NCBI GenBank assembly: GCA_003762875.1
Contig: RIBL01000003.1
Coordinates: forward strand, 62,001 to 126,000
DNA from: Muribaculaceae bacterium Isolate-110 (HZI)
GTDB taxonomy: Bacteria > Bacteroidota > Bacteroidia > Bacteroidales > Muribaculaceae
Direction of reading: 5' to 3'
DNA: 64,000 nucleotides
The notes beneath the pieces are model-generated. The model did no database searches. It had not been told where the DNA came from and saw only the letters and a program-made list of their open reading frames with translations. Below, piece after piece: positions 4,237 through 62,271 of this stretch. Both the position numbers and the translations under genes were made by a program. The first letter of the stretch is position 1, and every line of letters starts with the position of its first letter.

Positions 4237-5982
4237 ATGGAAAACGACCAGTTGTTACAGGAAGTAACAGCCAAAGCCAAGGTGTGGCTCGGCGAAGGAT
4301 ACGACGCGGAGACCCGCGCCGAAGTGCAGCGTATGCTTGACGCCGATGACAAGACCGACCTGATAGAATGCTTCTACCGTGACCTCGAATTCGGAACCGG
4401 CGGACTGCGCGGCATCATGGGTGCTGGCTCCAACCGCATGAATATATACACCGTGGGTGCCGCCACCCAGGGCCTCGCCAACTATCTCAAGGAAGCCTTC
4501 AAGGATCTGCCCGAAATCAGCGTGGCCGTAGGCCATGACGTGCGCAACAACTCGCGCAAGTTTGCCGAAATCGTAGCCGACATCTTCTCGGCCAACGGCA
4601 TCAAGGTATACCTCTTCGACAGCTTCCGTCCCACTCCCGAGCTGTCTTTTGCCATACGTCACTTCGGATGCCAGAGCGGCGTCAACATCACCGCCTCACA
4701 CAACCCCAAGATCTACAATGGCTACAAGGCCTATTGGGAAGACGGTGCCCAGATTATCGCACCCCACGACGTCAATATCATCGACCACGTCAACCGCATC
4801 AAGAGCGTGAGCGAAATCAAGTTTGAGGGTGACAAGTCGAAAATCCAGATTGTTGGGCCTGAAGTCGACAAGATATATCTCGAGAAAATCAAGGAGCTCT
4901 CGCTCAGCCCCGAGGCCATCGAGCGCAACAAAGACCTCAAGATTGTCTACACCCCCATCCACGGCACAGGCGTCGAACTGATACCCGCCTCGCTCAAGAA
5001 CTACGGCTTCGCCAACATCATCCACGTGCCCGAGCAGGACGTGCCCAGCGGTGATTTCCCCACCGTCGAGTCGCCCAACCCCGAAGTGCCCTCGGCCATG
5101 GCTCTCGCCATCGCCAAGGCCAAGGAGGTAGGAGCCGACATCGTGATGGCCTCCGACCCCGACGCCGACCGCGTGGGATGCGTGATACGCGACAACAACA
5201 ACGAGTATGTGCTGCTCAACGGCAACCAGATATGCATGATACTCCTCTACTACATCATCACCCGCAACCGCGAGCTCGGACTCATCAAGGGCAACGAGTT
5301 TGTCGTAAAGACCATCGTGACCACCGAGACCATCAAGAGCATCTGCGACGCCAATAAGGTGAAGATGTTTGACTGCTACACCGGCTTCAAGTGGATTGCA
5401 GCCGTGATGCGCGACAACGAGGATGTGCTCCGCTACATCGGCGGCGGCGAAGAGAGCTACGGCTTCCTGGCCGAGACCTTCGTGCGCGACAAGGACGCTG
5501 TGTCGGCATGCTCGCTTCTGGCCGAAGCCTGCGCATGGGCCAAGGACAAGGGCATGGACTTCCAGGCCATGCTTGCCGACATCTACAAGACCTATGGTTT
5601 CAGCCTCGAGGTAGGCGTGTCGGTGGTACGTCCCGGCAAGAGCGGCGCAGAGGAAATCCAGGCCCTCATGAAGCAGTTCCGCGAGAATCCGCCCAAGACT
5701 CTCGCCGGCAGCCCCGTTGTGGAGGTGAAGGACTATCTGTCGCTCAACGCCACCAAGGCCGACGGATCGGTCGAGAAGCTCGACTTCCCCACCACATCCA
5801 ACGTGCTCCAGTACTTCACCGCCGACGGTTCAAAGGTGTCGGTACGCCCCTCGGGCACCGAGCCTAAAATCAAGTTCTACATGGAGGTACGCATACCCAT
5901 GGAGTCGGCCGACCAGTACAACGCTTGCAACGAAGCCGCCCATGCCAAGGTGGAACTCCTGAAGAAAGATCTGGGCATCTGA
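4237..5982 (+). CDS. phosphoglucomutase/phosphomannomutase (alpha-D-phosphohexomutase)
   Basis: A cytosolic enzyme that moves phosphate between C1 and C6 of hexose phosphates, linking glycolysis to nucleotide-sugar synthesis. It has 581 residues, the length of the longer (PGM2-like) class. All four family loops are visible: phosphoserine loop TASHNP, metal loop DPDADR, sugar loop GGGEESYG and phosphate loop RPSGTEPK near the C terminus. The ATG at 4237 is chosen because it starts at the normal N terminus; an in-frame start at 4138 lies upstream of the promoter boxes. The preferred sugar cannot be decided from these motifs. Confidence 0.93.
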   Translation: MENDQLLQEVTAKAKVWLGEGYDAETRAEVQRMLDADDKTDLIECFYRDLEFGTGGLRGIMGAGSNRMNIYTVGAATQGLANYLKEAFKDLPEISVAVGHDVRNNSRKFAEIVADIFSANGIKVYLFDSFRPTPELSFAIRHFGCQSGVNITASHNPKIYNGYKAYWEDGAQIIAPHDVNIIDHVNRIKSVSEIKFEGDKSKIQIVGPEVDKIYLEKIKELSLSPEAIERNKDLKIVYTPIHGTGVELIPASLKNYGFANIIHVPEQDVPSGDFPTVESPNPEVPSAMALAIAKAKEVGADIVMASDPDADRVGCVIRDNNNEYVLLNGNQICMILLYYIITRNRELGLIKGNEFVVKTIVTTETIKSICDANKVKMFDCYTGFKWIAAVMRDNEDVLRYIGGGEESYGFLAETFVRDKDAVSACSLLAEACAWAKDKGMDFQAMLADIYKTYGFSLEVGVSVVRPGKSGAEEIQALMKQFRENPPKTLAGSPVVEVKDYLSLNATKADGSVEKLDFPTTSNVLQYFTADGSKVSVRPSGTEPKIKFYMEVRIPMESADQYNACNEAAHAKVELLKKDLGI

Positions 5983-6000
5983 AATTAATTTTCAATTATA

Positions 6001-6058
6001 AATTAGTAATTAGCAATTAACCTGACCTGCCGAGGCCGGTAATTGCTAATTACTAATT
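6001..6058. repeat. 18-bp perfect inverted repeat, AATTAGTAATTAGCAATT family
   Basis: Bases 6001-6018 pair perfectly with 6041-6058, separated by a GC-richer 22-base centre. It fills the gap between the phosphohexomutase stop and the dtd start. It could act as a terminator for the former, but the same core recurs at other gene boundaries, so it is also a dispersed repeat. Confidence 0.75.
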
Positions 6059-6076
6059 AATAATTATCAATTGATT

Positions 6077-6966: not shown

Positions 6967-7016
6967 CATAACCTTATAATCCCTTAACCCTATAACCTTT
7001 GTCCGCAGGACAAGTA
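6967..7016 (+). repeat. ATAACC-hairpin element before deoC
   Basis: Tandem ATAACC/TAACCC units are followed by the hairpin TTGTCCGCAGGACAA (6999-7013), 9 bases before the deoC ATG at 7022. The same arrangement with changed but still complementary stem bases precedes mscS, the ABC permease gene and the ATP-grasp gene in this window. Confidence 0.7.
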
Positions 7017-10927: not shown

Positions 10928-11046
10928 TTTAAAGAGTTTAGAGAGTTTATAAAGTTCAAAAAGTTTATAAAGTCACAAAATTAAGCCCTCAGCCACCCTC
11001 CCCGGCATGCAAAAATTACTAATTACTAATTGATAATTACTAATTC
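10924..11046. repeat. intergenic low-complexity repeats between the HD gene and the GH3 gene
   Basis: Bases 10924-10976 are near-tandem copies of an AGTTTATAAAG/AGAGTTTAGAG unit. Bases 11011-11045 are tandem TTACTAATTACTAATTGATA units of the AATTAGTAATTAGCAATT family. Similar AGTTTAAAG phrases occur at 13410, 37828, 50520 and 56764. No promoter box stands out. Confidence 0.5.
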
Positions 11047-11053
11047 ACCCCAA

Positions 11054-13396
11054 ATGTTGCCTAAATTACTTCCATTGCTCTTTGCCGCGGCCACAGCCAT
11101 GAGTGCCGCAGCCTACACACCGATCACACTGCCCGTCATCCCCGCCGACCCGCAGCTCGAGAAAAAGGTGGCCCAAAAGGTCGCCACCATGAGCCTTGAC
11201 GAAAAAATCGGACAGATGATACAGCTCCAGATCGACATCATCGGCGACCATGACGCCGACGGAGTGTTTCATTTCTCACAAGCCAAAGCCGACAGCGTAA
11301 TCGGCACCTACAAGGTAGGCTCATTTCTCAACACCCCCGGCACCACCTGCCTCACCGCCGCAGAATGGTGTCAGTTGATACCCAAGATACAGGAAACATC
11401 GCTGCGTCTCACGGGCATACCCACCATCTATGGCCTCGACCAGAACCACGGCACCACCTACACAGCCGACGGCACACTCTTCCCGCAAAACCTCAACGTA
11501 GCGGCGACATTCGACACCTCGCTGGCACGCACGGCCGCCGAAATCACAGCCTACGAGACACGTGCCTCCGACTGCCCCTGGACATTCTCGCCCACACTCG
11601 ACCTCGCCCGCGACCCGCGCTGGCCGCGTTTCTGGGAAAACTATGGCGAAGACCCGCTGGTCAACGCACTCATGGGCGCGGCCGCCGTCAGAGGCTTCCA
11701 GGGCGACGACCCCAACCACGTAGGGCCTCGCCACATCGCCGTCTCAGTCAAGCACTTCATGGGCTATGGCATACCCTTCTCGGGCAAAGACCGCACCCCG
11801 GCCTACATCTCCCCCTCCGACCTGCGCGAGAAGCATTTCGCCCCCTACCTCGAAGCCATACGCAACGGCGCGCTCACTCTCATGGTCAACTCTTCGTCAA
11901 TCAACGGCACCCCCGTCCACGCCAACCCCATACTCCTCACCCAATGGCTCAAAAACGACCTGCAATGGGACGGCATGATAGTCACCGACTGGGCCGACAT
12001 CAACAACCTCTACACGCGCGAGCATGTGGCCAAAGATAAGAAAGACGCCATACGCATAGCCATCAACGCCGGTATCGACATGGCCATGGAGCCATACAAA
12101 TGCGACTTCTGCACGCTGCTCAAAGAACTCGTCGAGGAGGGCAAGGTGTCCATGAGCCGCATCGACGACGCGGCCTCACGGGTGATACGCCTCAAATATC
12201 GCCTCGGCCTCTTCGACCGCCCCGACACCTATCTCAAAGACTATCCCGAGTTTGCATCCAAAGACCACGCCGAGGCCGCCCTACGCGCCGCCGAGGAGTC
12301 GATGGTGCTGCTCAAAAACGACAATTCCCTCCTGCCCCTGCGCCCGGGCATGAAACTGTTCGTCACCGGCCCGACAGCCAACTCCATGCGATCGCTCAAC
12401 GGCGGATGGAGCTACTCATGGCAGGGACACATAGCCGACGCTTACGCCAAAGACCACAACACCATCCTCGAGGCCCTGCAACAGCGTTTCGGCAACGACA
12501 ACATAATCTATCGCCCCACCGTTACATTTGACGAAAAAGGCTCCTGGCAAAGCGAGCTGCGCTGCACCGACGCAGAGTTTGCCGAAGCCGCAGTATGCGC
12601 AGTCAAGGCCGACGCGCTCATCCTCTGCATCGGCGAAAACTCCTACTGCGAGACTCCCGGCAACCTCTCCGACCTCCATCTCTCGCCCCTGCAGCGCGAC
12701 ATGGTGAGACGCTTCGCCTCGCTCGACCGCCCCATAATACTCGTGCTCAACGAAGGTCGTCCGCGCATCATCGCCGACATCGAGCCGCTCGCCTCGGCAG
12801 TCATCGACATCATGCTCCCGGGCAATTTCGGCGGCGACGCACTGGCCCGCCTCATGGCCGGCGACGCCAACTTCTCGGGCAAACTCCCCTTCACCTATCC
12901 GCGCGAGATCAATTCGCTCGTCACCTACGACTACAAGACCAGCGAGGAAGTTGGCAGCATGGAGGGCGCATATGACTATGACGCGCGTGTCAACGTGCAG
13001 TGGCCATTCGGCTACGGCCGCAGCTACACCTCCTACACTTACTCCGACCTCAAGGTCGACAGGACCGAGTTTGACGCCTCCGACTCACTCACCGTGACAC
13101 TGCTCGTCACCAACACCGGACAAATGCACGGCAAGGAGTCGGTGCTGCTCTTCTCGTCTGACCATGTGGCCTCGATAGTACCCGACAACAAACGTCTGCG
13201 CGCTTTCACCAAACTCGCGCTTATGCCGGGCGAGACACGCGAAGTGCGATTCACCATCCCGGCCACCGATCTGGCGTTTGTAGGAGCCGACGGCCGCTGG
13301 ACCCTCGAAGAGGGCGATTTCACCCTCACCGTCGGCCAGCTCTCCGTCCCCGTCCGCTGCACATCGACCACAACCTTCCCCCGCCCCAACATCTAA
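11054..13396 (+). CDS. GH3 family beta-glucosidase (secreted)
   Basis: 780 residues with a signal peptide ending near residue 20 (MLPKLLPLLFAAATAMSAAA). The N-terminal TIM barrel carries the GH3 nucleophile D312 in VTDWADI and the KHFMGYG substrate loop. The alpha/beta sandwich (KLFVTGP, then NLSDLHLSP) and the C-terminal fibronectin-III-like domain follow. The domain order is that of bacterial beta-glucosidases and exo-glycosidases. It is probably periplasmic and releases terminal glucose or xylose. It is a single gene, about 10 kb from the xylan locus. Confidence 0.93.
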   Translation: MLPKLLPLLFAAATAMSAAAYTPITLPVIPADPQLEKKVAQKVATMSLDEKIGQMIQLQIDIIGDHDADGVFHFSQAKADSVIGTYKVGSFLNTPGTTCLTAAEWCQLIPKIQETSLRLTGIPTIYGLDQNHGTTYTADGTLFPQNLNVAATFDTSLARTAAEITAYETRASDCPWTFSPTLDLARDPRWPRFWENYGEDPLVNALMGAAAVRGFQGDDPNHVGPRHIAVSVKHFMGYGIPFSGKDRTPAYISPSDLREKHFAPYLEAIRNGALTLMVNSSSINGTPVHANPILLTQWLKNDLQWDGMIVTDWADINNLYTREHVAKDKKDAIRIAINAGIDMAMEPYKCDFCTLLKELVEEGKVSMSRIDDAASRVIRLKYRLGLFDRPDTYLKDYPEFASKDHAEAALRAAEESMVLLKNDNSLLPLRPGMKLFVTGPTANSMRSLNGGWSYSWQGHIADAYAKDHNTILEALQQRFGNDNIIYRPTVTFDEKGSWQSELRCTDAEFAEAAVCAVKADALILCIGENSYCETPGNLSDLHLSPLQRDMVRRFASLDRPIILVLNEGRPRIIADIEPLASAVIDIMLPGNFGGDALARLMAGDANFSGKLPFTYPREINSLVTYDYKTSEEVGSMEGAYDYDARVNVQWPFGYGRSYTSYTYSDLKVDRTEFDASDSLTVTLLVTNTGQMHGKESVLLFSSDHVASIVPDNKRLRAFTKLALMPGETREVRFTIPATDLAFVGADGRWTLEEGDFTLTVGQLSVPVRCTSTTTFPRPNI

Positions 13397-21292: not shown

Positions 21293-21301
21293 AATTATTA
21301 C

Positions 21302-21593
21302 TTGGCCTGCGGCCAAAGGTTATAAGGTTATTACTTGCTCTTCGAGCAAAGGTTATAAGGTTATGAGGTTATCAATAAGTCTTGTTTACTTGGCCTTCGG
21401 CTAAAGGTTATGGGGTTATTACTTGCTCTTCGAGCAAATGAGGTTATCAATAAGGTCAGTCGCTAAGCCCCTGAGGGGCATAGATTATACGGTTCTGTCG
21501 GTCGTTCATTAGACCCATTAGCCCCATTCGGCCCATTTGCCCCGGAAAATACCCCGCAGGCCCGACCTCATAACCTTTGCTCAGCGAGCAAGT
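21302..21593 (-). repeat. composite hairpin-repeat element upstream of mscS (copy 1)
   Basis: Read on the minus strand this holds a chain of blocks. TTGCTCGCTGAGCAA (21591-21577) and GGTTATGAGGT come first, then a run of GGGNCTAATG-like 10-mers (about 21545-21504), GACCGACAGAACC, a palindrome GCCCCTCAGGGGC (21478-21466), GACTGACCTTATTGATAAC, and four more hairpins at 21423-21437, 21390-21404, 21335-21349 and 21302-21316, ending 10 bases before the mscS ATG. The same block order occurs at 52213-52498. Confidence 0.75.
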
Positions 21594-35167: not shown

Positions 35168-36265
35168 ATGAAACACCTTCTGACCCTCCCGCTGCTCGCG
35201 CTGCTTGTTTCGTGTGCATCGAGCGCGCCCGGAGACAAGCCTCTCAAAGAAGCTTTTGCCGACAACTTCCTCATCGGAGGAGCCATCAACATGGACGTCG
35301 TAAACGGCAACGACCCCAAAGGCGACTCCATAGTCACCCGTCACTTCAACACCATTGTGGCCGAAAACTGCATGAAAAGCGAGAAAATCAACCCCGCCGA
35401 AGGCATATATGCCTGGGATGACGCCGACGCCTTCGTGAAATACGGCCAGGACAGAGGCATGTTTATCGTCGGCCACACACTCATATGGCACTCACAGCTC
35501 GCACCATGGTTTGCCGTCGACTCGCTCGGCCAGCCCGTCACCCCCGAAGTGCTCAAAGAGCGCATGCGCACACACATCACTACAGTCATGAACCGCTACA
35601 AAGGTCGCATACAAGGCTGGGACGTAGTCAATGAAGCAATTCTCGACGACGGCTCCTACCGCCAGTCGCCATTCTACGATATACTCGGAGAGGAGTTTAT
35701 ACCCCTGGCCTTCCAATACGCCATGGAAGCCGACCCCGACGCCGAACTCTACATCAACGACTTCTCCATGGCCGCGCCAGGCAAACGCGACCGCTACGTA
35801 CAGTTGGTCAACGACCTCAAGGCGCGCGGACTCCGTGTCGACGCCATCGGCATGCAGGGCCACATGGGCTTGGACTATCCCGACATAGCCGAGTTTGAGA
35901 AATCCATCAAAGCCTTCGCCTCGACAGGTGCCAAAGTCATGATTACCGAATGGGACATGTCGGCACTCCCGACAGTCAACACCGGCGCAAACGTCTCTGA
36001 CACCGCAGCCTATCAGGCAGCCCTAAACCCCTATCCCGACGGACTCCCCGATGACGTGGCCGCCCGCTGGAACGACCGCATGCGTCAGATGATGGACCTC
36101 TTCATAGCCAACGCCGACGTAATCTCGCGCGTCAACGCCTGGGGCACCGACGACGCCTCTTCATGGAAAAACAACTGGCCCGTAGCTGGCCGCACAGAGT
36201 ATCCCCTGCTCTTCGACCGCGTCTACAACCTCAAGCCCTTCCTTCGCCCCTACACCACCCGCTAA
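35168..36265 (+). CDS. GH10 endo-1,4-beta-xylanase
   Basis: 365 residues with a lipoprotein signal (LLALLVSCASS). It is a compact GH10 barrel without extra modules: HTLIWHSQ at about residue 100, acid/base E156 in WDVVNEA, and nucleophile E261 in ITEWDM. It probably acts in the periplasm or on the outer membrane on oligosaccharides made by the larger GH10. It follows the symporter by 48 bases and is the last gene before the inverted-repeat cassette. Confidence 0.95.
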   Translation: MKHLLTLPLLALLVSCASSAPGDKPLKEAFADNFLIGGAINMDVVNGNDPKGDSIVTRHFNTIVAENCMKSEKINPAEGIYAWDDADAFVKYGQDRGMFIVGHTLIWHSQLAPWFAVDSLGQPVTPEVLKERMRTHITTVMNRYKGRIQGWDVVNEAILDDGSYRQSPFYDILGEEFIPLAFQYAMEADPDAELYINDFSMAAPGKRDRYVQLVNDLKARGLRVDAIGMQGHMGLDYPDIAEFEKSIKAFASTGAKVMITEWDMSALPTVNTGANVSDTAAYQAALNPYPDGLPDDVAARWNDRMRQMMDLFIANADVISRVNAWGTDDASSWKNNWPVAGRTEYPLLFDRVYNLKPFLRPYTTR

Positions 36266-36279
36266 CCGGCACTATACTA

Positions 36280-36768
36280 AGATACAAAAGTTTCATAAGG
36301 ACAAAAGAAACATAAGTTTTTCATATCTCATAACCTCACGTCCATGGATACCGAAAACCTGATCAAAGAAATTGTGGACTCAGCCATCACTGTCAAACGT
36401 ACTCTCGGACATGGATTTCTTGAGGCCGTATATCACAATGCCCTCATGTTTGAATTGCAACACCGAGGATACAAATGTGAGAAAGAAAAAGACATAAAGG
36501 TATACTACCTCGACCGTATAGCCGGAGCATATCGTGCCGATTTGATAGTCGAAGGAAAAGTAATCATCGAGATTAAAGTCGCAGACGGCATAGCTCCGGC
36601 ACATGAATACCAACTTGTCAACTATCTGCGTGCGACAAACATCGAAGATGGATTGATTGTTAATTTCGGCACTTTCCCGGTCGGCTTCAAACGCAAATTC
36701 CTAAACAAAAAACTTAGCTGAAATTAAAAAACTTATGTTTCTTCTGTCCTTCTGAAACTTTTGTATCT
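36280..36768. mobile_element. inverted-repeat cassette carrying a GxxExxY gene
   Basis: Bases 36280-36321 are the reverse complement of 36727-36768 over 42 positions with two mismatches. The ~489-base unit holds only the GxxExxY gene (36344-36721) and is visibly more A/T-rich than the genes around it. The repeat contains shorter phrases (ACAAAAGTTT, AAAGGACAAAAG) that continue just outside the right end (36769-36800). I see no clear target-site duplication and no transposase. Whether it moves is inference. Confidence 0.65.
36344..36721 (+). CDS. GxxExxY family protein (PD-(D/E)XK nuclease-like)
   Basis: 125 residues, full length for the family. The signature GFLEAVY is at about residues 24-30. 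The nuclease-like core is AYRADLIVEGKVIIEIKV (about 64-82), with an aspartate and then E-x-K as in the PD-(D/E)XK fold, followed by QLVNYL. No function has been established that I know of. It lies between a GH10 and a GH43 gene but has no evident link to xylan use, and long inverted repeats flank it. Confidence 0.85.
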   Translation: MDTENLIKEIVDSAITVKRTLGHGFLEAVYHNALMFELQHRGYKCEKEKDIKVYYLDRIAGAYRADLIVEGKVIIEIKVADGIAPAHEYQLVNYLRATNIEDGLIVNFGTFPVGFKRKFLNKKLS

Positions 36769-36833
36769 AAAAACTTTTGTCCTTTTGTATCCCCTATACC
36801 CCATATCTCCCATATCTTTAACCCGATTATTTT

Positions 36834-37826
36834 ATGAATCCACTCCAACCCGACAAACGTTATCTTTTCCCGGACGACTACATGGCCGATCCGAGCGTAC
36901 ACGTATACAACGGTAAAATTTACATCTACCCCTCCCACGACTGGGAATGTGAAAACGTCGAAAACGACAACGGCGACCAATACGTCATGAAAGACATGCA
37001 CGTACTCTCCATCGACGGCGACCCCATGACCGGCAAAGTCACCGACCACGGCAAAGCCCTCGACATCGCCGACATACCCTGGGCCGGACGACAGCTCTGG
37101 GACTGCGACTGCGCCGAAAAAGACGGTCGTTACTACCTCTACTTCCCCCTCAAAGACCAAAACGACATCTTCCGCATCGGAGTAGCCATAGCCGACCGTC
37201 CCGAAGGCCCCTTCATACCACAGCCCGACCCCATACGCGGCAGCTACTCGATGGACATCTGCGTGCTCCCCGACGCCGACGGACACTATTATCTCTACTT
37301 TGGCGGACTCTGGGGCGGACAGCTCCAGCGTTACCGCGACAACAAAGCCCTCGAGAGTGCCGACCTCCCCGAAGGCGACGTCCCCGCACTCCCCAGCCGA
37401 TGCGTGCGCCTCACCGCCGACATGCTCCAGTTTGCCGAAGAGCCTCGTCCCATCGTAATCCTCGACAAAGAAGGCAACCCACTCAAAGCCAACGACCCTC
37501 ATCGCTTCTTCGAAGCCTCCTGGGTGCATAAATACAACGGTAAATATTACTTCTCCTACTCCACCGGCGACTCCCATCTGCTCTGCTACGCCATCGGCGA
37601 CAACCCCTACGGCCCCTTCGTCTATCAGGGCGTAATCCTCACACCCGTCGTAGGCTGGACCACCCACCACTGCATCATCGAGTATGAAGGCAAATGGTAT
37701 CTCTTCCACCACGACAGCATACCCTCGGGCGGCAAATCATGGCTCCGCTCCCTCAAAGTATGCCCCATCACCTACGACTCCGAAGGCCACATCCTCACCA
37801 TCGACGGAGGAGGAGATTCTTTATAG
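36834..37826 (+). CDS. GH43 family arabinofuranosidase/beta-xylosidase
   Basis: 330 residues, a single five-blade beta-propeller domain without a signal peptide, so probably cytosolic. The catalytic triad fits GH43: base D19 in ADPSV, pKa modulator D141 in SMDICV, and acid E227 in FFEASW. It should release arabinose or xylose from imported xylo-oligosaccharides. It is the last plus-strand hydrolase before the glycosyltransferase/mutase pair. Confidence 0.92.
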   Translation: MNPLQPDKRYLFPDDYMADPSVHVYNGKIYIYPSHDWECENVENDNGDQYVMKDMHVLSIDGDPMTGKVTDHGKALDIADIPWAGRQLWDCDCAEKDGRYYLYFPLKDQNDIFRIGVAIADRPEGPFIPQPDPIRGSYSMDICVLPDADGHYYLYFGGLWGGQLQRYRDNKALESADLPEGDVPALPSRCVRLTADMLQFAEEPRPIVILDKEGNPLKANDPHRFFEASWVHKYNGKYYFSYSTGDSHLLCYAIGDNPYGPFVYQGVILTPVVGWTTHHCIIEYEGKWYLFHHDSIPSGGKSWLRSLKVCPITYDSEGHILTIDGGGDSL

Positions 37827-42767: not shown

Positions 42768-44486
42768 ATGACAAGTAAATGGAACTACTGTCCTCTTACA
42801 TCCGACGAGCAAGAAGCGGAATCCCGACTGGCGCAACGCTATTCGGGCACTCCGCCTGTTAGCGAGCTGCTGGCACAACGGGGCATATCCACAATCGAGG
42901 AGGCTGACAAATTTTTCTACCCCTCGCTCAAGGATCTGCACGACCCGTTCCTCATGCCCGACATGGACCGGGCTGTGGAGCGGCTCAACCTCGCCATGGG
43001 GAGGAAAGAAAAAATAATGGTCTACGGAGACTATGACGTGGACGGCACCACTGCCGTGGCTCTCGTCTACAAATATCTGCGTAACTATTACTCTAACATC
43101 GAGTATCACATACCCACTCGCACCGAGGACGGGTATGGCATCTCGCGCGCCACTATCGACATGGCCGCCGAGAGCGGAGTACGTCTCTTCATCATACTCG
43201 ACTGCGGCATCAAGGCCACCGACGAAGTTGCCTATGCGCGCTCACTCGGCATCGACTTCATCATCTGCGACCACCACGTGGCCGACGATGTGCTGCCCCC
43301 TGCGGCAGCCATCCTCAACCCCAAACTCGAAGGCTCGACCTACCCGTGCTCCCATCTCTCGGGGTGTGGAGTGGGCTATAAACTCATGCAGGCCTTCGCC
43401 ATCTCCAACTCCCTTCCTATGGGCGACCTCGAGGGACTGCTCGACCTTGTGGCGGTGTCAATCGCCGCCGACATCGTGCCGATGGTAGGTGAGAACAGGA
43501 TACTCACCTACTATGGTCTCAAACGCCTCAACTCCAACCCCAACATGGGTCTGCGCGCCATCATACGCACCTGCGGACTCTCGGGCAAGGAGATTACCAT
43601 CAGCGATGTAATATTCAAGATCGGACCGCGCATCAACGCCTCGGGACGTATGCAGAGCGGCAAAGAGGCCGTCGACCTGCTCGTGAGCCGCGACATGGCC
43701 GACGCTCTGGCTCGCGCCAAGGATATCGACGGATACAACCAGGACCGTAAGGAGCTTGACAAGCAGATAACCGAAGAAGCCAACACTATACTCGAAGAGC
43801 GCGACGTAAGCCATTCGCAGAAAAAGTCGATAGTCATCTACAACAAAAACTGGCACAAAGGCATCATCGGCATCGTGGCATCGCGCCTCACCGAGCTCTA
43901 CTACAAGCCGACCGTAGTGCTCACCCATGCCAACGGCCTGGCCACCGGATCGAGCCGTTCGGTGCAGGGTTTTGACGTCTACAGTGCGGTCGAGTCGACC
44001 CGCGACCTGCTCGAAAACTTCGGCGGACACACCTATGCGGTAGGCCTCTCGCTCAAGGAGGAAAACATCCCCGAGTTCACACGCCGGTTTGAGGAATATG
44101 TCAGGACCAATATCCGCACCGACCAGCTCACGCCCCAGCACGACATTGACGCCTATCTGACATTCAGCGAGATAACACCCGAGTTTCTCACGTTGCTGCG
44201 CAAGTTCAACCCCTACGGGCCAGGCAACTCCAAACCTGTGTTCTGCACCCTCCGTGTCAAGGACTTCGGCACCAGCAAACTCGTCGGCAAGCAGGGCGAG
44301 CACATCAAACTCGAAGTGGTCGATGACACCTCGGGCAAAGTCTACAACGGCATCGCCTTTAACTCGGCCGCCTACTTCCCCCACATCCACGCCGGCAAGC
44401 CGTTTGACATCTGCTACACCATCGAGGAAAACAAGCGCAAGACATCCCACTCCGTACAGCTCCTCGTAAAAGGAATCCTCTGTTAA
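42768..44486 (+). CDS. recJ: single-stranded-DNA-specific exonuclease RecJ
   Basis: 572 residues. The DHH phosphoesterase motifs are in order: DYDVDGT (about residue 88-94), DCGIK (about 145-149) and DHH (about 167-169), followed by the DHHA1 domain with SGRMQSGKEAV-like and GFDVYSAV segments, and the OB-fold C terminus. It degrades 5' single-stranded ends in recombination and mismatch repair. recQ lies next, a sensible pair because RecQ unwinds the substrate of RecJ. Confidence 0.96.
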   Translation: MTSKWNYCPLTSDEQEAESRLAQRYSGTPPVSELLAQRGISTIEEADKFFYPSLKDLHDPFLMPDMDRAVERLNLAMGRKEKIMVYGDYDVDGTTAVALVYKYLRNYYSNIEYHIPTRTEDGYGISRATIDMAAESGVRLFIILDCGIKATDEVAYARSLGIDFIICDHHVADDVLPPAAAILNPKLEGSTYPCSHLSGCGVGYKLMQAFAISNSLPMGDLEGLLDLVAVSIAADIVPMVGENRILTYYGLKRLNSNPNMGLRAIIRTCGLSGKEITISDVIFKIGPRINASGRMQSGKEAVDLLVSRDMADALARAKDIDGYNQDRKELDKQITEEANTILEERDVSHSQKKSIVIYNKNWHKGIIGIVASRLTELYYKPTVVLTHANGLATGSSRSVQGFDVYSAVESTRDLLENFGGHTYAVGLSLKEENIPEFTRRFEEYVRTNIRTDQLTPQHDIDAYLTFSEITPEFLTLLRKFNPYGPGNSKPVFCTLRVKDFGTSKLVGKQGEHIKLEVVDDTSGKVYNGIAFNSAAYFPHIHAGKPFDICYTIEENKRKTSHSVQLLVKGILC

Positions 44487-44577
44487 TTAGTAATTAGCAA
44501 TTAGTAATTATCAGGCTGACGATCAGCAATTCACAGCAGTCCGTAAATTATACACACTATCAATTGCCAATTACTAA
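44487..44577. repeat. AATTAGTAATTAGCAATT-family repeats between recJ and recQ
   Basis: TAATTAGTAATTAGCAATTA begins right after the recJ stop, and CAATTGCCAATTACTAATTG closes the gap. The two ends are roughly inverted. The last bases of the right repeat supply the TTG start codon of recQ. Confidence 0.7.
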
Positions 44578-46485
44578 TTGAAACTAAGTGTCCTGAAGCA
44601 ATATTGGGGCTATGACGAGTTCCGGCCCATGCAGGAAGAGATAATCGACTCCATGCTCGCCGGACACGACACCCTCGGACTGCTCCCCACAGGGGGCGGC
44701 AAGAGCCTCACGTTTCAAGTGCCGGCACTCATGCTTGAAGGAGTGACCATAGTAGTCACCCCACTTATCTCGCTCATGAAGGACCAGGTGGACAACCTGG
44801 CCGACCGTGGCATAAGGGCCGTATTGTTTCACTCCGGACTCACACCGCGCGAAAAAGACCTCGCCATGACACGATGTCGTCTCGGCAAAGCCAAGATTGC
44901 ATACGTCTCACCCGAACGCCTTCAGAACGAACATTTTCTCGCCGAACTGCGCACACTCACCGTCTCGCTGCTCGTGGTCGACGAGGCCCACTGCATATCG
45001 CAGTGGGGCTATGACTTCCGCCCCTCCTACCTGCGCATAGCAGCCCTGCGACGCATAGTAGGCCCGCACGTGCCGGTGCTCGCGCTCACCGCCTCGGCCA
45101 CGCCCGAAGTCACGGCCGACATCATGCGCCACCTGTCGTTTGACAAGCCGCGAGTCTTTGCCCGTAGCTTCACACGCGAAAACCTCAGCTACATAGTGCG
45201 TTATGCCGACGCCAAGGAGCCGACACTCATGCGCGTGCTCCTCAACACCTCAGGCACCTCCATAGTATATGTGCGCTCGCGACGCCGCACCCGCGAACTC
45301 GCCGCACTCCTCTCCGACGCCGGCATATCGGCCGAAGCCTACCACGCCGGTCTCGACCCCGAGGACAAAGAGATGCGCCAGGACCGATGGAAACGCGGCG
45401 AAGTGAGAGTCATGGTAGCCACCAACGCCTTCGGCATGGGCATAGACAAACCCGATGTGCGCCTGGTGGTGCACTACGACCTGCCCCCATCGCTCGAAGA
45501 ATACTATCAGGAAGCCGGGCGAGGCGGACGCGACGGCAAGGAGTCGCTCGCCGTGGTCATAGCCTCGCGCTCCGACAAGGGACTGCTCACACGACGCGTC
45601 AACGAAGCCTTCCCGCCCAAGGACTTCATAGCCCACGTCTACGAGATGGCAGGCAACTTTCTCAACATCCCCGTGGGCGAAGGCTACGGGACTGTATGCC
45701 AGTTTAATTTCAACCTTTTCTGCGACACATTCAGCCTCCCGCCCGTCACCACACGCAGCGCGCTCCACATCCTCACACGCGCCGGCTATGTGGAGTATAT
45801 CGAAGAGACCACCTCGCGCTCACGCATCATGGTGATAATGAAGCGCGACGACCTCTACTCGCTGCGTCTCAACCCCGACACCGAAGAAGTGTTGCAATGC
45901 GTGCTCCGGCAATACACAGGCCTGTTTGCCGACTATGTCTACATAAGCGAACTCATGATAGCCGAGCGTCTGCGCCTCTCGTCCGAGCAGGTCTACAACT
46001 CCCTGCTCACGCTCGGGCGCATGCACGTAATCCACTACATCCCCCGCGCCACCACCCCCTATCTCGTCTTTACCACCTCGCGCGAGGAGCCGCGCCACAT
46101 CATCATCCCCATCGACGTCTACGAGCGTCAGCGCGAACGCATGGAGCAGCGGGTCAACGCGATGAAGGAGTTTGTGTTCAACGCCTCGGAATGCCGCGCC
46201 AACACCCTGCTGCGCTATTTCGGCGAATCGCCGGCCGAGCCGTGCGGCAAATGTGACGTCTGCCGCTCGCGACGCCAGGCCCGGCGCGCCGATGCAGAGC
46301 AGTCCAATCTGCGCGACGCCATCATCTATCACGCCTCGCGCCCCGGAGGCACCGACGTCAGCGAGACAGTCGACACCCTCGCGCCCCGCTACGGACGCGA
46401 CACCGTCATACAGGCCATCCGCGACCTCGCCTCACAGTCGGCAGTCATCCTCCGCGACACCCGCATCACTCTGAGAGCACTGTAA
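44578..46485 (+). CDS. recQ: ATP-dependent DNA helicase RecQ
   Basis: 635 residues. Helicase motifs: FRPMQEEII (motif 0), TGGGKS (Walker A), DEAHC (motif II), SATPEV, and GRGGRDG (motif VI). The zinc cysteines (ECRAN, then CGKCDVC) and winged-helix part of the RQC region follow. An HRDC domain is not evident. The start must be TTG 44578: a TAA stop codon precedes it directly in frame, and the next ATG is too far inside. The TTG belongs to a repeat that fills the gap after recJ. Confidence 0.94.
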   Translation: MKLSVLKQYWGYDEFRPMQEEIIDSMLAGHDTLGLLPTGGGKSLTFQVPALMLEGVTIVVTPLISLMKDQVDNLADRGIRAVLFHSGLTPREKDLAMTRCRLGKAKIAYVSPERLQNEHFLAELRTLTVSLLVVDEAHCISQWGYDFRPSYLRIAALRRIVGPHVPVLALTASATPEVTADIMRHLSFDKPRVFARSFTRENLSYIVRYADAKEPTLMRVLLNTSGTSIVYVRSRRRTRELAALLSDAGISAEAYHAGLDPEDKEMRQDRWKRGEVRVMVATNAFGMGIDKPDVRLVVHYDLPPSLEEYYQEAGRGGRDGKESLAVVIASRSDKGLLTRRVNEAFPPKDFIAHVYEMAGNFLNIPVGEGYGTVCQFNFNLFCDTFSLPPVTTRSALHILTRAGYVEYIEETTSRSRIMVIMKRDDLYSLRLNPDTEEVLQCVLRQYTGLFADYVYISELMIAERLRLSSEQVYNSLLTLGRMHVIHYIPRATTPYLVFTTSREEPRHIIIPIDVYERQRERMEQRVNAMKEFVFNASECRANTLLRYFGESPAEPCGKCDVCRSRRQARRADAEQSNLRDAIIYHASRPGGTDVSETVDTLAPRYGRDTVIQAIRDLASQSAVILRDTRITLRAL

Positions 46486-49701: not shown

Positions 49702-50339
49702 AATGGATTGACGACCAGGAGGATTATTTCCTTCGCGACTTCAACGACAAGGATGGCGACAAAACCGCCACCCCGGCTGAAGGCACAGACACTCCCGCCG
49801 CTCCTGCCGCCGGGAGCGACACCGCTACGGCCGCTGACAATCAACCCTCATCGCAGAACGGCGGCGGCAGCAACGAGTTTACATTCCCCTCGGGCCAAAG
49901 TTACGCCAATGGCTCTCCGGCCGCATCTCCGGCCGATGATGACGCTCCGGCCCGGAGCCGTCGCCGACGTCGCCGCCGGCGTCTGGCCTGGTTTTTCATT
50001 ATAGTGTTTGCCGTGCTGGCCGTGGCTTTCTACATACGCTATTTCGTGCCCTATACGTCCGACACTCTCACCACGGGCTATATCACTCTTGTGGAGAAGA
50101 GGGGCATATTTTTCAAGACATTTGAAGGAGAGATGATTTCTGAGAGTGTGCTTGCCGATACTTCCAAGGTGTACTCGCGCGATTTTTATTTCTCCATACC
50201 CAACGACTCTCTGGGGCGGCTCGTGCAGTCCTATCAGGGTACGGGCAAGCGTGTCACCGTCACCACACAAAAATATTTCGGCACCGTGCCCTGGCGCGGC
50301 TCCCAAAAATCTGTCATAACGAACATTTCTGTCAATTAG
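49698..50339 (+). CDS. membrane-anchored conserved protein of unknown function
   Basis: 213 residues. Acidic N terminus (MKWIDDQEDYFLRDF), a low-complexity Pro/Ala/Ser/Asn linker, an arginine cluster (RSRRRRRRRR) before a single membrane segment (about 104-122), then about 90 residues outside with RYFVPYTSDT, GIFFKTFEGEM and VTVTTQKYFGTVPWRG. Similar proteins in Bacteroides are often mislabelled '6-phosphogluconate dehydrogenase'; nothing here supports an enzyme. It is coupled by an ATGA overlap to the flippase-like gene. Confidence 0.7.
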   Translation: MKWIDDQEDYFLRDFNDKDGDKTATPAEGTDTPAAPAAGSDTATAADNQPSSQNGGGSNEFTFPSGQSYANGSPAASPADDDAPARSRRRRRRRRLAWFFIIVFAVLAVAFYIRYFVPYTSDTLTTGYITLVEKRGIFFKTFEGEMISESVLADTSKVYSRDFYFSIPNDSLGRLVQSYQGTGKRVTVTTQKYFGTVPWRGSQKSVITNISVN

Positions 50340-50520
50340 TAATTAGCAATTAGTAATTAGTAATTAACTAATGCTGATATTATCAGTGATATTGGCTGTC
50401 AATTCAATGCCATCATTATTATATTGCAAATTGCTTAATCGGCTTGCCGCTTGGCTTGCAAAAAATTGCTAATTGCTAATTACTAATTGCTAATTATTTA
50501 TTGCTAATTGCTAATTTGAA
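50336..50520. repeat. AATTAGTAATTAGCAATT-family repeats between the 49698 gene and aroA
   Basis: CAATTAGTAATTAGCAATTA and further tandem copies begin at the preceding stop codon. The inverted forms (TTGCTAATTGCTAATTACTA) occupy 50467-50518. The centre (about 50375-50460) is unlike the ends and has no gene. This is the longest member of this repeat family in the window. Confidence 0.7.
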
Positions 50521-50537
50521 GTTTAAAGTAAGAAGGA

Positions 50538-51830: not shown

Positions 51831-52211
51831 ATGACAGGAGCTTTCATAATACTCGGCATAACTCTTCTGACGGGCCTGATACTCTATATCACCCGTGACA
51901 GGTCAGCCACGGTGGCCGACTCTACGACTCCGCAAGAGGAGATTGAGGAGGAAGAGGTGTGTTGCGGGCGGCATGCGGTGTGCGAGAAGGGGTTACTGAC
52001 CTCCGAGGAGCTGTATTACAACGATGAGGAACTCGACAGCTACAAGGGTCGCGAGCCTGGGAGCTATACCCCAGAAGAAATTGAGGAGTTTCGCGAAGTA
52101 CTCTACACTCTGCGCCCCGAGGAGGTGTATCAGTGGGGCGTCGCTCTTACTCAGCGCGATATACCTCTGCCCGACGCCCTGCGCGACGAGTGGCTCATGC
52201 TTGTCTCTTGA
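51831..52211 (+). CDS. small membrane-anchored protein with a CCGxHxxCE motif
   Basis: 126 residues. One N-terminal membrane segment (about residues 4-20), an acidic linker (EEIEEEE), then CCGRHAVCE at about 44-52, ELYYNDEELDSY and a helical C terminus. The three cysteines and a histidine in a short span suggest a metal site. Related Bacteroidales proteins next to aroA are sometimes called 'phospholipase', without support here. The function is unknown. The stop is followed at once by the composite repeat element. Confidence 0.7.
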   Translation: MTGAFIILGITLLTGLILYITRDRSATVADSTTPQEEIEEEEVCCGRHAVCEKGLLTSEELYYNDEELDSYKGREPGSYTPEEIEEFREVLYTLRPEEVYQWGVALTQRDIPLPDALRDEWLMLVS

Positions 52212-52212
52212 C

Positions 52213-52498
52213 TTGCTCTTCGAGCAAAGGTTATGAGGTTATAAGGTTATAAGGTTATAAGGTTAAGCCTGACGGAACGTTTTTGGGGCTAATGGGGCCG
52301 ATGGGGCTAATGAGCCGAATGGGCCTGATGGGCCTGATGGGCGACCGACAAAACCTTGTAATCTTTGCTCTTCGAGCAAAGTGACTGATTTATTGATAAC
52401 TTATAATCTTATAACCCTTAGTCAAAGGCCAGATAATAACCTCATAACCTTTGCCCATAGGGCAAGTAATAACCTTATAACCTTTGCCCGCAGGGCAA
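52213..52498 (+). repeat. composite hairpin-repeat element upstream of the ABC permease gene (copy 2)
   Basis: In order: TTGCTCTTCGAGCAA (52213-52227), GGTTATGAGGTTATAAGG tandem units, a run of GGGGCTAATGGGGCCGATGG-like 10-mers (52284-52341), GACCGACAAAACCTTGTAA, TTGCTCTTCGAGCAA (52365-52379), GACTGATTTATTGATAAC, then hairpins TTGCCCATAGGGCAA (52451-52465) and TTGCCCGCAGGGCAA (52484-52498), 5 bases before the ATG. The block order is the same as in the element before mscS. Confidence 0.75.
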
Positions 52499-52503
52499 GT
52501 AAA

Positions 52504-53301
52504 ATGGATATATTTAATTACGAGTTTTTCCGCAACGCACTTATGGCGGTGGTGCTGCTGAGCATTGCGTCGGCCATCATAGGGACATATATAGTGAGCC
52601 GTCGTCTGGTGTCAATATCGGGCGGCGTGACACATGCCTGCTTCGGCGGTCTTGGTCTCGGCTATTATCTGAGCATCAACCCCGTAATCATGGCAGCCGT
52701 CTTTGCCATAGCCTCGTCGCTGGGCGTTCAGTGGATGTCGGCGCGACACCGTGTGCGCGAAGATTCGGCCATAGCCGTGATATGGGCCATAGGTATGGCC
52801 ATAGGCACACTTTTTATATTCCTGACTCCGGGCTACGTGCCTGAACTCAATTCGTTTCTCTTCGGCAATATCCTCACTGTCACCCGCGGCGACCTGTGGG
52901 CATTCCTGATATTCACGCTCGTGCTTACAGGATTTATGGCTGCCATGTATCGCAACATTGTCATCTGTGCCTTCGACCCTGACTTCGCCCGGGTACGCCG
53001 TCTGCCGGTGACCTTTGTCACCACTGCCATGACCGTGCTTGTGGCCGTGTGTATAGTGCTCACCATCCGGCTTGTCGGAGTGATGCTGCTCATGTCGATG
53101 CTCGCGCTGCCCCAGATGACCGCCGAACTGTTTGTCAAGCGTTTCGGCTCCATAATGCGGCTGTCAATCGGCATCTCGCTGACATGCTCGCTGGCCGGAC
53201 TGCTGCTGGCCACGGTGGTCAACGTGCCGTGCTCGGCCCTGATAGTGCTGACCATGGCCGGGGCCTATCTCGTGTCGTGGGCCATACGCCGAATTATCTG
53301 A
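52504..53301 (+). CDS. metal ABC transporter permease (ZnuB-like)
   Basis: 265 residues, seven or eight membrane segments, ABC-3 family of zinc/manganese importers (SRRLVSISGGVTHACFGGLGLG; VRLVGVMLLMSMLALPQ-like TIRLVGVMLLMSMLALPQM). The start at ATG 52504 is preferred; an in-frame reading upstream only translates the hairpin repeats. The partner ATPase and binding protein are not adjacent. Substrate is inferred from family only. Confidence 0.9.
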   Translation: MDIFNYEFFRNALMAVVLLSIASAIIGTYIVSRRLVSISGGVTHACFGGLGLGYYLSINPVIMAAVFAIASSLGVQWMSARHRVREDSAIAVIWAIGMAIGTLFIFLTPGYVPELNSFLFGNILTVTRGDLWAFLIFTLVLTGFMAAMYRNIVICAFDPDFARVRRLPVTFVTTAMTVLVAVCIVLTIRLVGVMLLMSMLALPQMTAELFVKRFGSIMRLSIGISLTCSLAGLLLATVVNVPCSALIVLTMAGAYLVSWAIRRII

Positions 53302-62183: not shown

Positions 62184-62264
62184 CCTTTGCCCACATGGCA
62201 AAACAAAGCTCTCTTGCATAACCTCATAACCTTATAACCTCATAACCTTTGCCCGCAGGGCAAA
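62184..62264 (+). repeat. ATAACC-hairpin elements before the ATP-grasp gene
   Basis: Hairpins TTGCCCACATGGCAA (62188-62202, one mismatch) and TTGCCCGCAGGGCAA (62250-62264), separated by CATAACCTCATAACCTTATA-type units. The second ends 7 bases before the ATG at 62272. Confidence 0.7.
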
Positions 62265-62271
62265 TAACAGT

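Follow-up and report, generated by a model that had tools for sequence, protein, structure and literature searches.

A GxxExxY gene between inverted repeats in a Muribaculaceae genome points to a possible, so far undescribed family of hairpin elements mobilized by a Cas4-like nuclease

Introduction

Proteins annotated as GxxExxY form a functionally unassigned family that is found in many phyla. In the available parts of the papers searched, the name appears solely as an annotation, and the available part of one of them describes a gene that was called cas4 by one program and GxxExxY by another (PMC8934634). A pairing of GxxExxY genes with repeats was not found among the matches listed, as judged by title and the start of the abstract in literature open without subscription. 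The locus described here is a single GxxExxY gene between two long inverted repeats at the junction of two glycoside hydrolase genes. It lies in a stretch of 64,000 nucleotides (hereafter the window) from contig RIBL01000003.1 of Muribaculaceae bacterium Isolate-110 (HZI), whose genome (G000) comprises 3.42 Mb in 100 contigs. To an earlier, sequence-only reading of the window, the locus looked like a one-gene non-autonomous mobile cassette or a selfish nuclease unit that is moved by its own product or in trans. If GxxExxY proteins are tied to specific repeats, the family would gain a likely role and a substrate that can be tested. The pairing would also account for intergenic repeats of the ACACGGATT, CACGAAG, and ACATAAG kinds, and would allow the spread of 23S intervening sequences and of other one-gene elements with inverted repeats to be tested directly.

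Results

The unit is 489 nt long, and its arms, which are 95% complementary and separated by 405 nt, lie exactly where the sequence-only reading had placed 42-base inverted ends with two mismatches (Table 1). The only ORF of at least 80 amino acids wholly inside the arm pair is the GxxExxY gene; it begins with an ATG 22 nt past the left arm, has no internal stop, and encodes a protein that matches TIGR04256 with 127.6 bits (cut-off 35), in agreement with the single, complete gene that had been described. The cassette is also A/T-rich, as had been claimed, with a G+C content of 0.397 versus 0.578 in GH10 and 0.571 in GH43, and a G+C content this low was observed in 22 of 2541 stretches of the same size. 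Pfam searches identified the neighbors as GH10 and GH43, confirming that the cassette splits this gene pair. In silico, the RNA of the unit folds with a z-score of -6.4, with 0 of 100 shuffled sequences equally stable, and the predicted structure is a long stem of both arms that encloses the ORF. No Rfam match was found anywhere in the window. Taken together, this fold and the recurrence of the arm at 40 sites in the genome (see below) indicate that the arm pair exceeds chance.

Table 1. Positions in the window of the unit, its neighbors, and a related junction
Feature	Position	Strand	Remarks
Left arm	36280..36321	+	42 nt; member of a dispersed arm family
GxxExxY gene	36344..36721	+	125 aa; predicted Cas4/RecB-like PD-(D/E)XK nuclease
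Right arm	36727..36768	-	Reverse complement of the left arm, two mismatches
Partial extra right-arm copy, directly downstream of the unit	36769..36793	-	Remnant or neighboring unit
GH10, upstream neighbor	35168..36265	+	The GH10-GH43 junction is the insertion site
GH43, downstream neighbor	36834..37826	+	
AT-rich gene-less hairpin at recJ-recQ	44483..44579	.	Junction where the congener G010 carries a GxxExxY unit

TIGR04256 and PF13366 (PDDEXK_3; 124.8 bits, cut-off 22) are the only profiles that match the window protein. A profile search of solved structures by sequence yielded nothing convincing for this protein. The solved fold closest to its predicted model (pLDDT 92.5, pTM 0.85) is 4ic1 (SSO0001; E 3e-4, TM 0.58, rmsd 12.2 over 131 columns), a Cas4, to which the match is moderate; weaker matches were obtained to MGME1, LHK-Exo, and lambda exonuclease. 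Among 76 sequences, residues G24, E27, D66, Q90, and Y94 are invariant and E76 and K78 are conserved in at least 90%. GxxExxY proteins thus carry conserved E-D-ExK-QxxxY residues, a pattern that presumably represents the RecB/Cas4-type active-site motif. These positions would fit an active site of that type and, with both the ExK and QxxxY elements present, GxxExxY is predicted to be a Cas4/RecB-like PD-(D/E)XK nuclease; the PD-(D/E)XK-like core proposed earlier is likewise supported by the PF13366 match and the Cas4-like predicted model. Eight pairs of genes were considered for dN/dS, of which three with dS below 1 gave values of 0.04, 0.11, and 0.20. The ratios were 0.05 and 0.19 in another two, where dS was near 2; a usable dS was lacking for two others, including the window-G010 pair, and one was unusable owing to an N. 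Based on the low ratios in the first three pairs, the protein seems to be retained, at least where units are stable.

A search of G000 with the arm returned at least 108 matches, a lower bound since 40 of 103 candidates were scored, and these cluster into 65 arm places distributed over 40 sites; two or more arms are present at 23 of the sites. A local search of the G000 stretches minus the window gave 40 sites, comprising 21 inverted pairs, 17 single arms, and 2 sites with arms in the same direction. A few of the G000 sites may be assembly duplicates, given that some contigs start or end at arms; the first 116 bases of contigs C57 and C90 are identical. The gene-less pairs consist of a left arm, a spacer of 13-152 nt (versus 405 nt in the window unit), and an inverted right arm. 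No second GxxExxY gene was found in G000, the copy in the window unit being the only one in the genome. A lone cassette with private repeats is thus rejected by the genome-wide matches, with arms at 40 or more G000 sites that are otherwise gene-less. Rather, the window unit is the one gene-bearing member, in G000, of an otherwise gene-less family of arms and hairpins. One of 66 arm midpoints falls inside an ORF of at least 100 amino acids, although such ORFs make up 81% of the stretches. Arms align better within units (mean score 33.1) than between them (24.0), and 15 of 22 left arms score best with their own right arm, a number reached in 0 of 10,000 permutations. A target duplication of at least 3 nt was found in 0 of 16 units with well-defined ends, and nested copies of elements occur (L035).

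Several gene-less units of G000 (L025, L038, L049, and others) have a second inverted repeat nested in the loop. Such repeats were detected at p<0.01 in 6 of 13 tested spacers and are not all of one word; one of them, GACAGGAGTACAGGAGT, resembles the arms of the GxxExxY units L106, L092, and L093. An arm at 7298-7339 of L038 runs over the 3' end of an ORF, whose last codons and stop it provides. The window also contains a repeat family of GGTTATAAGGTTATGAGG with TTACTTGCCCGCAGGGCAA hairpins (21295-21577, 52208-52514, 6968-7016, and 62218-62267), the AGGTTAT words of which also match the sequence on either side of a G000 S23 four-helix gene (L330), and an AT-rich hairpin family, TAATTAGTAATTAGCAATTAG, located in intergenic gaps that include recJ-recQ (5976-6076, 11014-11056, 44483-44579, and 50326-50531).

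Comparison with relatives revealed the empty sites that an insertion predicts. GH10 and GH43 are adjacent in nine congeners among the fetched loci, and in eight of these the aligned ends are 18-118 bp apart, with no arm pair and no such unit; in none of the nine does the GxxExxY gene occupy the junction without repeats, an outcome that would have spoken against a cassette. In the ninth, G005, a gene-less hairpin that starts and ends with the window arm family is present; 21 arm matches were found in this genome, which lacks a GxxExxY gene. In the congener G010, an arm-gene-arm unit with 67% DNA identity to the window unit lies between recJ and recQ (Pfam). Homology between the two units spans exactly 36280 to 36768 and ends at the outer arm ends, at a different site, and both units sit between co-directional genes. 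The recJ-recQ junction was readable in 18 of 19 fetched loci of the genus (G000 included, G010 counted apart): 14 have 2-54 bp, and G000, G004, G021, and G033 have longer, repeat-bearing sequence, which in G000 is an AT-rich hairpin. The window unit is therefore an insertion and its presence is lineage-specific. Of the proposed one-gene mobile cassette, the inserted, arm-bounded, one-gene unit is upheld, and its standing alone with its own repeats is not. Different hairpin elements use the same junctions and, therefore, what G005 carries at GH10-GH43 may have inserted independently and not be the unit minus its gene; sites may be shared because they are hot spots, and the gene-less hairpin does not prove gene loss. 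In G000 and G005, the rhaA-rhaT junction (L332, L333, L055) is occupied by an S23 unit; its occupant in G010 is a gene-less hairpin of the window arm family.

Units linked to menB are vertically stable in seven Prevotella-type genomes, indicating that units can stay in place for long and, therefore, that movement must be slow. At L207, L209, L211, L218, L222, L233, and L248, the GxxExxY gene is preceded by related genes in one conserved locus; the preceding gene in L211, the one searched, is menB (NCBIfam). A conserved neighbor gene as a needed partner was rejected, because the approximately 1 kb of upstream homology seen in several pairs corresponds to genes that differ between clades. A plasmid search returned 8 records and a phage search returned none.

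GxxExxY genes are patchily distributed: within the genus, 4 of 27 genomes have a match that passes the cut-off, and within the family 40 of 198 do. Some genomes carry several (up to 8 matches in G212). When the 250 nt on either side of each gene were compared, inverted flanks scoring at least 17 were found at 49 of 69 GxxExxY genes in the family versus 0 of 23 ordinary ORFs taken from those loci, and at 44 of 78 GxxExxY genes across phyla versus 5 of 133 ordinary ORFs, such that the flanks noted at the window gene do have counterparts at other GxxExxY genes. Twelve of the 78 across-phyla genes exceed the highest score of the 133 ordinary ORFs. In a first run against 43 ordinary ORFs from family and S23 loci, 44 of 69 genes were above the 99% level and 36 of 69 were above the maximum. 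With flanks of other loci as shuffled partners, 49 of 71 family genes and 27 of 78 across-phyla genes exceed the 99% level (22 and 51, respectively, fall below it), and 46 of 78 across-phyla genes exceed the 95% level. It should be noted that the across-phyla loci, drawn from named genomes, are the top 80 among at least 548; 2 of the 80 were excluded for short flanks, as were 1 or 3 of 72 family genes, depending on the test. Further, L066, L067, and L068 were left out of the family flank test, the full-length family genes in G170 and G081 and fragments lie outside the tested set, and two loci are common to both sets (L077 = L237; L065 and L200).

The arms consist of tandem words such as ACATAAG, ACAGGATT, ACACGGATT, and CACGAAG, and the sequence of the arms follows the protein subfamily. 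The Mantel correlation between arms and proteins was 0.45 over 93 genes and 0.23 between the family and across-phyla sets; without same-locus copies it was 0.35 (n=66, p<=0.0005), and 0.35 again with host G+C partialled out. A correlation of this kind is also expected from simple co-inheritance. Amplification of arms was followed in two further genera. In G095, 55 matches to the arms of its own unit were detected, most of them single arms, versus 1, 1, and 0 in its three congeners; single arms at L318 and L325 of this genome lie beside MITE-like ends (GAGGGTGTATCAAAAT). In the third genus (11 genomes), the L078 arm type gave 60 matches in G198 and 72 in G191, which carry GxxExxY proteins (L078 and L070) that are 60% identical, and was detected in 0 of 9 congeners, which either lack GxxExxY or have proteins whose identity to L078 does not exceed 46%. 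Counts from repeat-rich genomes are lower bounds, with part of the candidates scored, while genomes of the compared genera that gave zero matches were scored in full. Thus, arm amplification in these two genera (4 and 11 genomes, respectively) is confined to genomes with the matching gene type. A pooled Fisher test of matching gene versus amplification (5 of 6 versus 1 of 22, p 3.5e-4) serves as a guide only, since the class "matching gene" was assigned after the results were known and G002 was classed as gene-bearing though its copy is broken and it has one arm match. As judged from these comparisons, the link between GxxExxY genes and repeats holds generally across genera and phyla. The sequence-only reading had held that repeats occurring genome-wide with no link to GxxExxY genes would count against it; the first half of that outcome was observed and the second was not, the link extending across genera and phyla.

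Discussion

The results point to a family of mobile hairpins, so far undescribed, that would depend on a Cas4-like nuclease. By analogy, the explanation we favor, with some reserve, is a REPIN-RAYT-like system in which a PD-(D/E)XK nuclease would be the enzyme and the window unit its gene-bearing hairpin member. The arms would be the ends of the unit and, most likely, putative binding sites of the GxxExxY protein, and the gene-less arms and pairs are probably, although far from certainly, non-autonomous relatives spread or left by the GxxExxY system. We infer that the unit moves. In such a scheme, the GxxExxY gene would first be read through from the host operon, as the 22 nt from arm to ATG suggest, and the arm pair, when single-stranded during replication or repair, would fold into a hairpin similar to that predicted in silico for the RNA of the unit. 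The nuclease would then recognize the repeated ACA-type words of the arms and cut at or near the hairpin, a step suggested by the fold, the conserved active-site residues, and arm-protein co-inheritance. Finally, host repair or replication would insert or copy the hairpin between genes with no target duplication. If one arm is copied from the other, arms would match within a unit and differ between units. Two cases run counter to this scheme, namely G005, with arms but no gene, and Bacteroides fragilis Q1F2, with a GxxExxY gene but only 3 weak 25-nt arm matches. Likewise, the preponderance of single arms in G095 and the 17 one-armed sites among the 40 local sites in G000 run counter to a model of paired hairpins.

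Alternatively, the unit could act at the level of RNA, with the arms forming a transcript stem that is cut by RNase III, thereby sparing the host operon, and with the gene being secondary. The long two-arm stem predicted around the ORF (z -6.4) and the position between co-directional genes in G000 and G010 are what such an element would show. Moreover, S23 genes have the same layout and, in the available part of the source, the Coxiella intervening sequence is described as having 28-bp terminal inverted repeats that are cut by RNase III (PMC4990558). This explanation is nevertheless considered unlikely: rRNA is absent from 80 of 80 GxxExxY loci, the degree of co-orientation is nothing unusual (107 of 144 upstream and 107 of 143 downstream), and arm-protein co-inheritance and gene-linked amplification would be left unexplained.

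There is similarly little to recommend GxxExxY as a passenger of hairpins that are moved in trans by a RAYT or an insertion sequence. Most insertion sequences generate a target duplication, and one of at least 3 nt was seen in 0 of 16 units. G000 does encode one Y1 transposase (the transposase check covered Y1), but this gene has inverted REP flanks of its own that differ from the arms. Retention of many arms by G005, which has no GxxExxY gene, is readily accommodated by a passenger, whereas subfamily-specific arms across phyla are not expected of one. Least probable of all is that the hairpins are terminators or were made in place by template-switch copying and trapped the gene by chance, which the low-complexity arms that match within units and their intergenic sites would allow, but which is at odds with units of two species that are homologous exactly from end to end at unrelated sites, an arm sequence common to 40 sites, and the gene-specific association of arms.

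Returning to a hairpin family run by the GxxExxY nuclease, a broader version is put forward more tentatively, as a possibility that we would not yet bet on: mobile hairpins would form a widespread class that depends on a minimal Cas4-like nuclease and seeds genomes with gene-less hairpins of matching arm sequence, with S23 elements as a sister class that shares some intergenic sites and 23S intervening sequences as a special case that landed in rRNA. This class would include Bacteroidota, Verrucomicrobiota, Acidobacteriota, desulfobacterial lineages, and Planctomycetota, and perhaps archaea, based on a single short contig from an archaeal MAG.

Comparison with known systems

The likeness of GxxExxY to Cas4 and lambda-exonuclease nucleases lies in its modeled fold and in the conserved E-D-ExK-QxxxY residues. 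Cas4-type nucleases carry an iron-sulfur cluster; in contrast, the window protein has only 125 amino acids and a single cysteine and, therefore, no cluster of the Cas4 type. With MITEs and insertion sequences, the family shares terminal inverted repeats, gene-less derivatives, and nested copies, as in L035. It differs in that the unit has no transposase domain, the only gene between the arms being PDDEXK_3, and in that no target duplication of at least 3 nt was seen in 16 units, although some transposon families produce none.

S23 four-helix genes, the kind of gene found in 23S intervening sequences, also tend to lie between inverted repeats, with 19 of 30 fetched loci above the 99% level of ordinary ORFs. 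Of three such genes examined in G000, L330 (28.5) and L332 (24.0) score clearly and the partial L331 (15.0) weakly. Their flanking words (AGTTnnTAGTT, AGGTTATAAGG) differ from the arms of GxxExxY genes. As far as the available part of the source describes 23S intervening sequences with an S23 protein, they resemble the window unit in having one small ORF between terminal inverted repeats, in length (428-444 versus 489), and in a mobility that has long been only a hypothesis (PMC4990558). The terminal inverted repeats of the window unit likewise form a long stem in the predicted fold. However, the unit lies outside rRNA and its ORF belongs to a family other than S23, and that ORF is intact, whereas the Coxiella ORF is said, in the same part of the source, to undergo reductive evolution (PMC4990558). 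An rRNA intervening sequence was accordingly rejected as an identity for the unit, with no Rfam match in the window and no rRNA in 80 of 80 GxxExxY loci.

The REPIN-RAYT system, in which REPINs are thought to depend on RAYTs according to the available part of the source, provides several likenesses (PMC3116915). The window family consists of dispersed intergenic repeats, often in inverted doublets, and includes a gene flanked by the same repeats that is single-copy in G000. Membership in a RAYT system was rejected, because the only Y1 gene of G000 carries other repeats. That Y1/RAYT-type gene (L329 1292-1994, around G000:C25:191010-191348) lies between inverted REP copies of approximately 88 nt that are unlike the window arms, and its right REP copy falls within the open frame, before the likely start codon. 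The two systems also differ in that some genomes have several GxxExxY genes and in their enzymes, RAYT being described in the available text as a Y1 (HUH) tyrosine transposase (PMC3116915) and GxxExxY being PD-(D/E)XK by Pfam and modeled fold, with PDDEXK_3 the only such domain in the window unit. What the two also have in common, as far as the available part of that source goes, is a repeat type that is tied to a gene type (PMC3116915).
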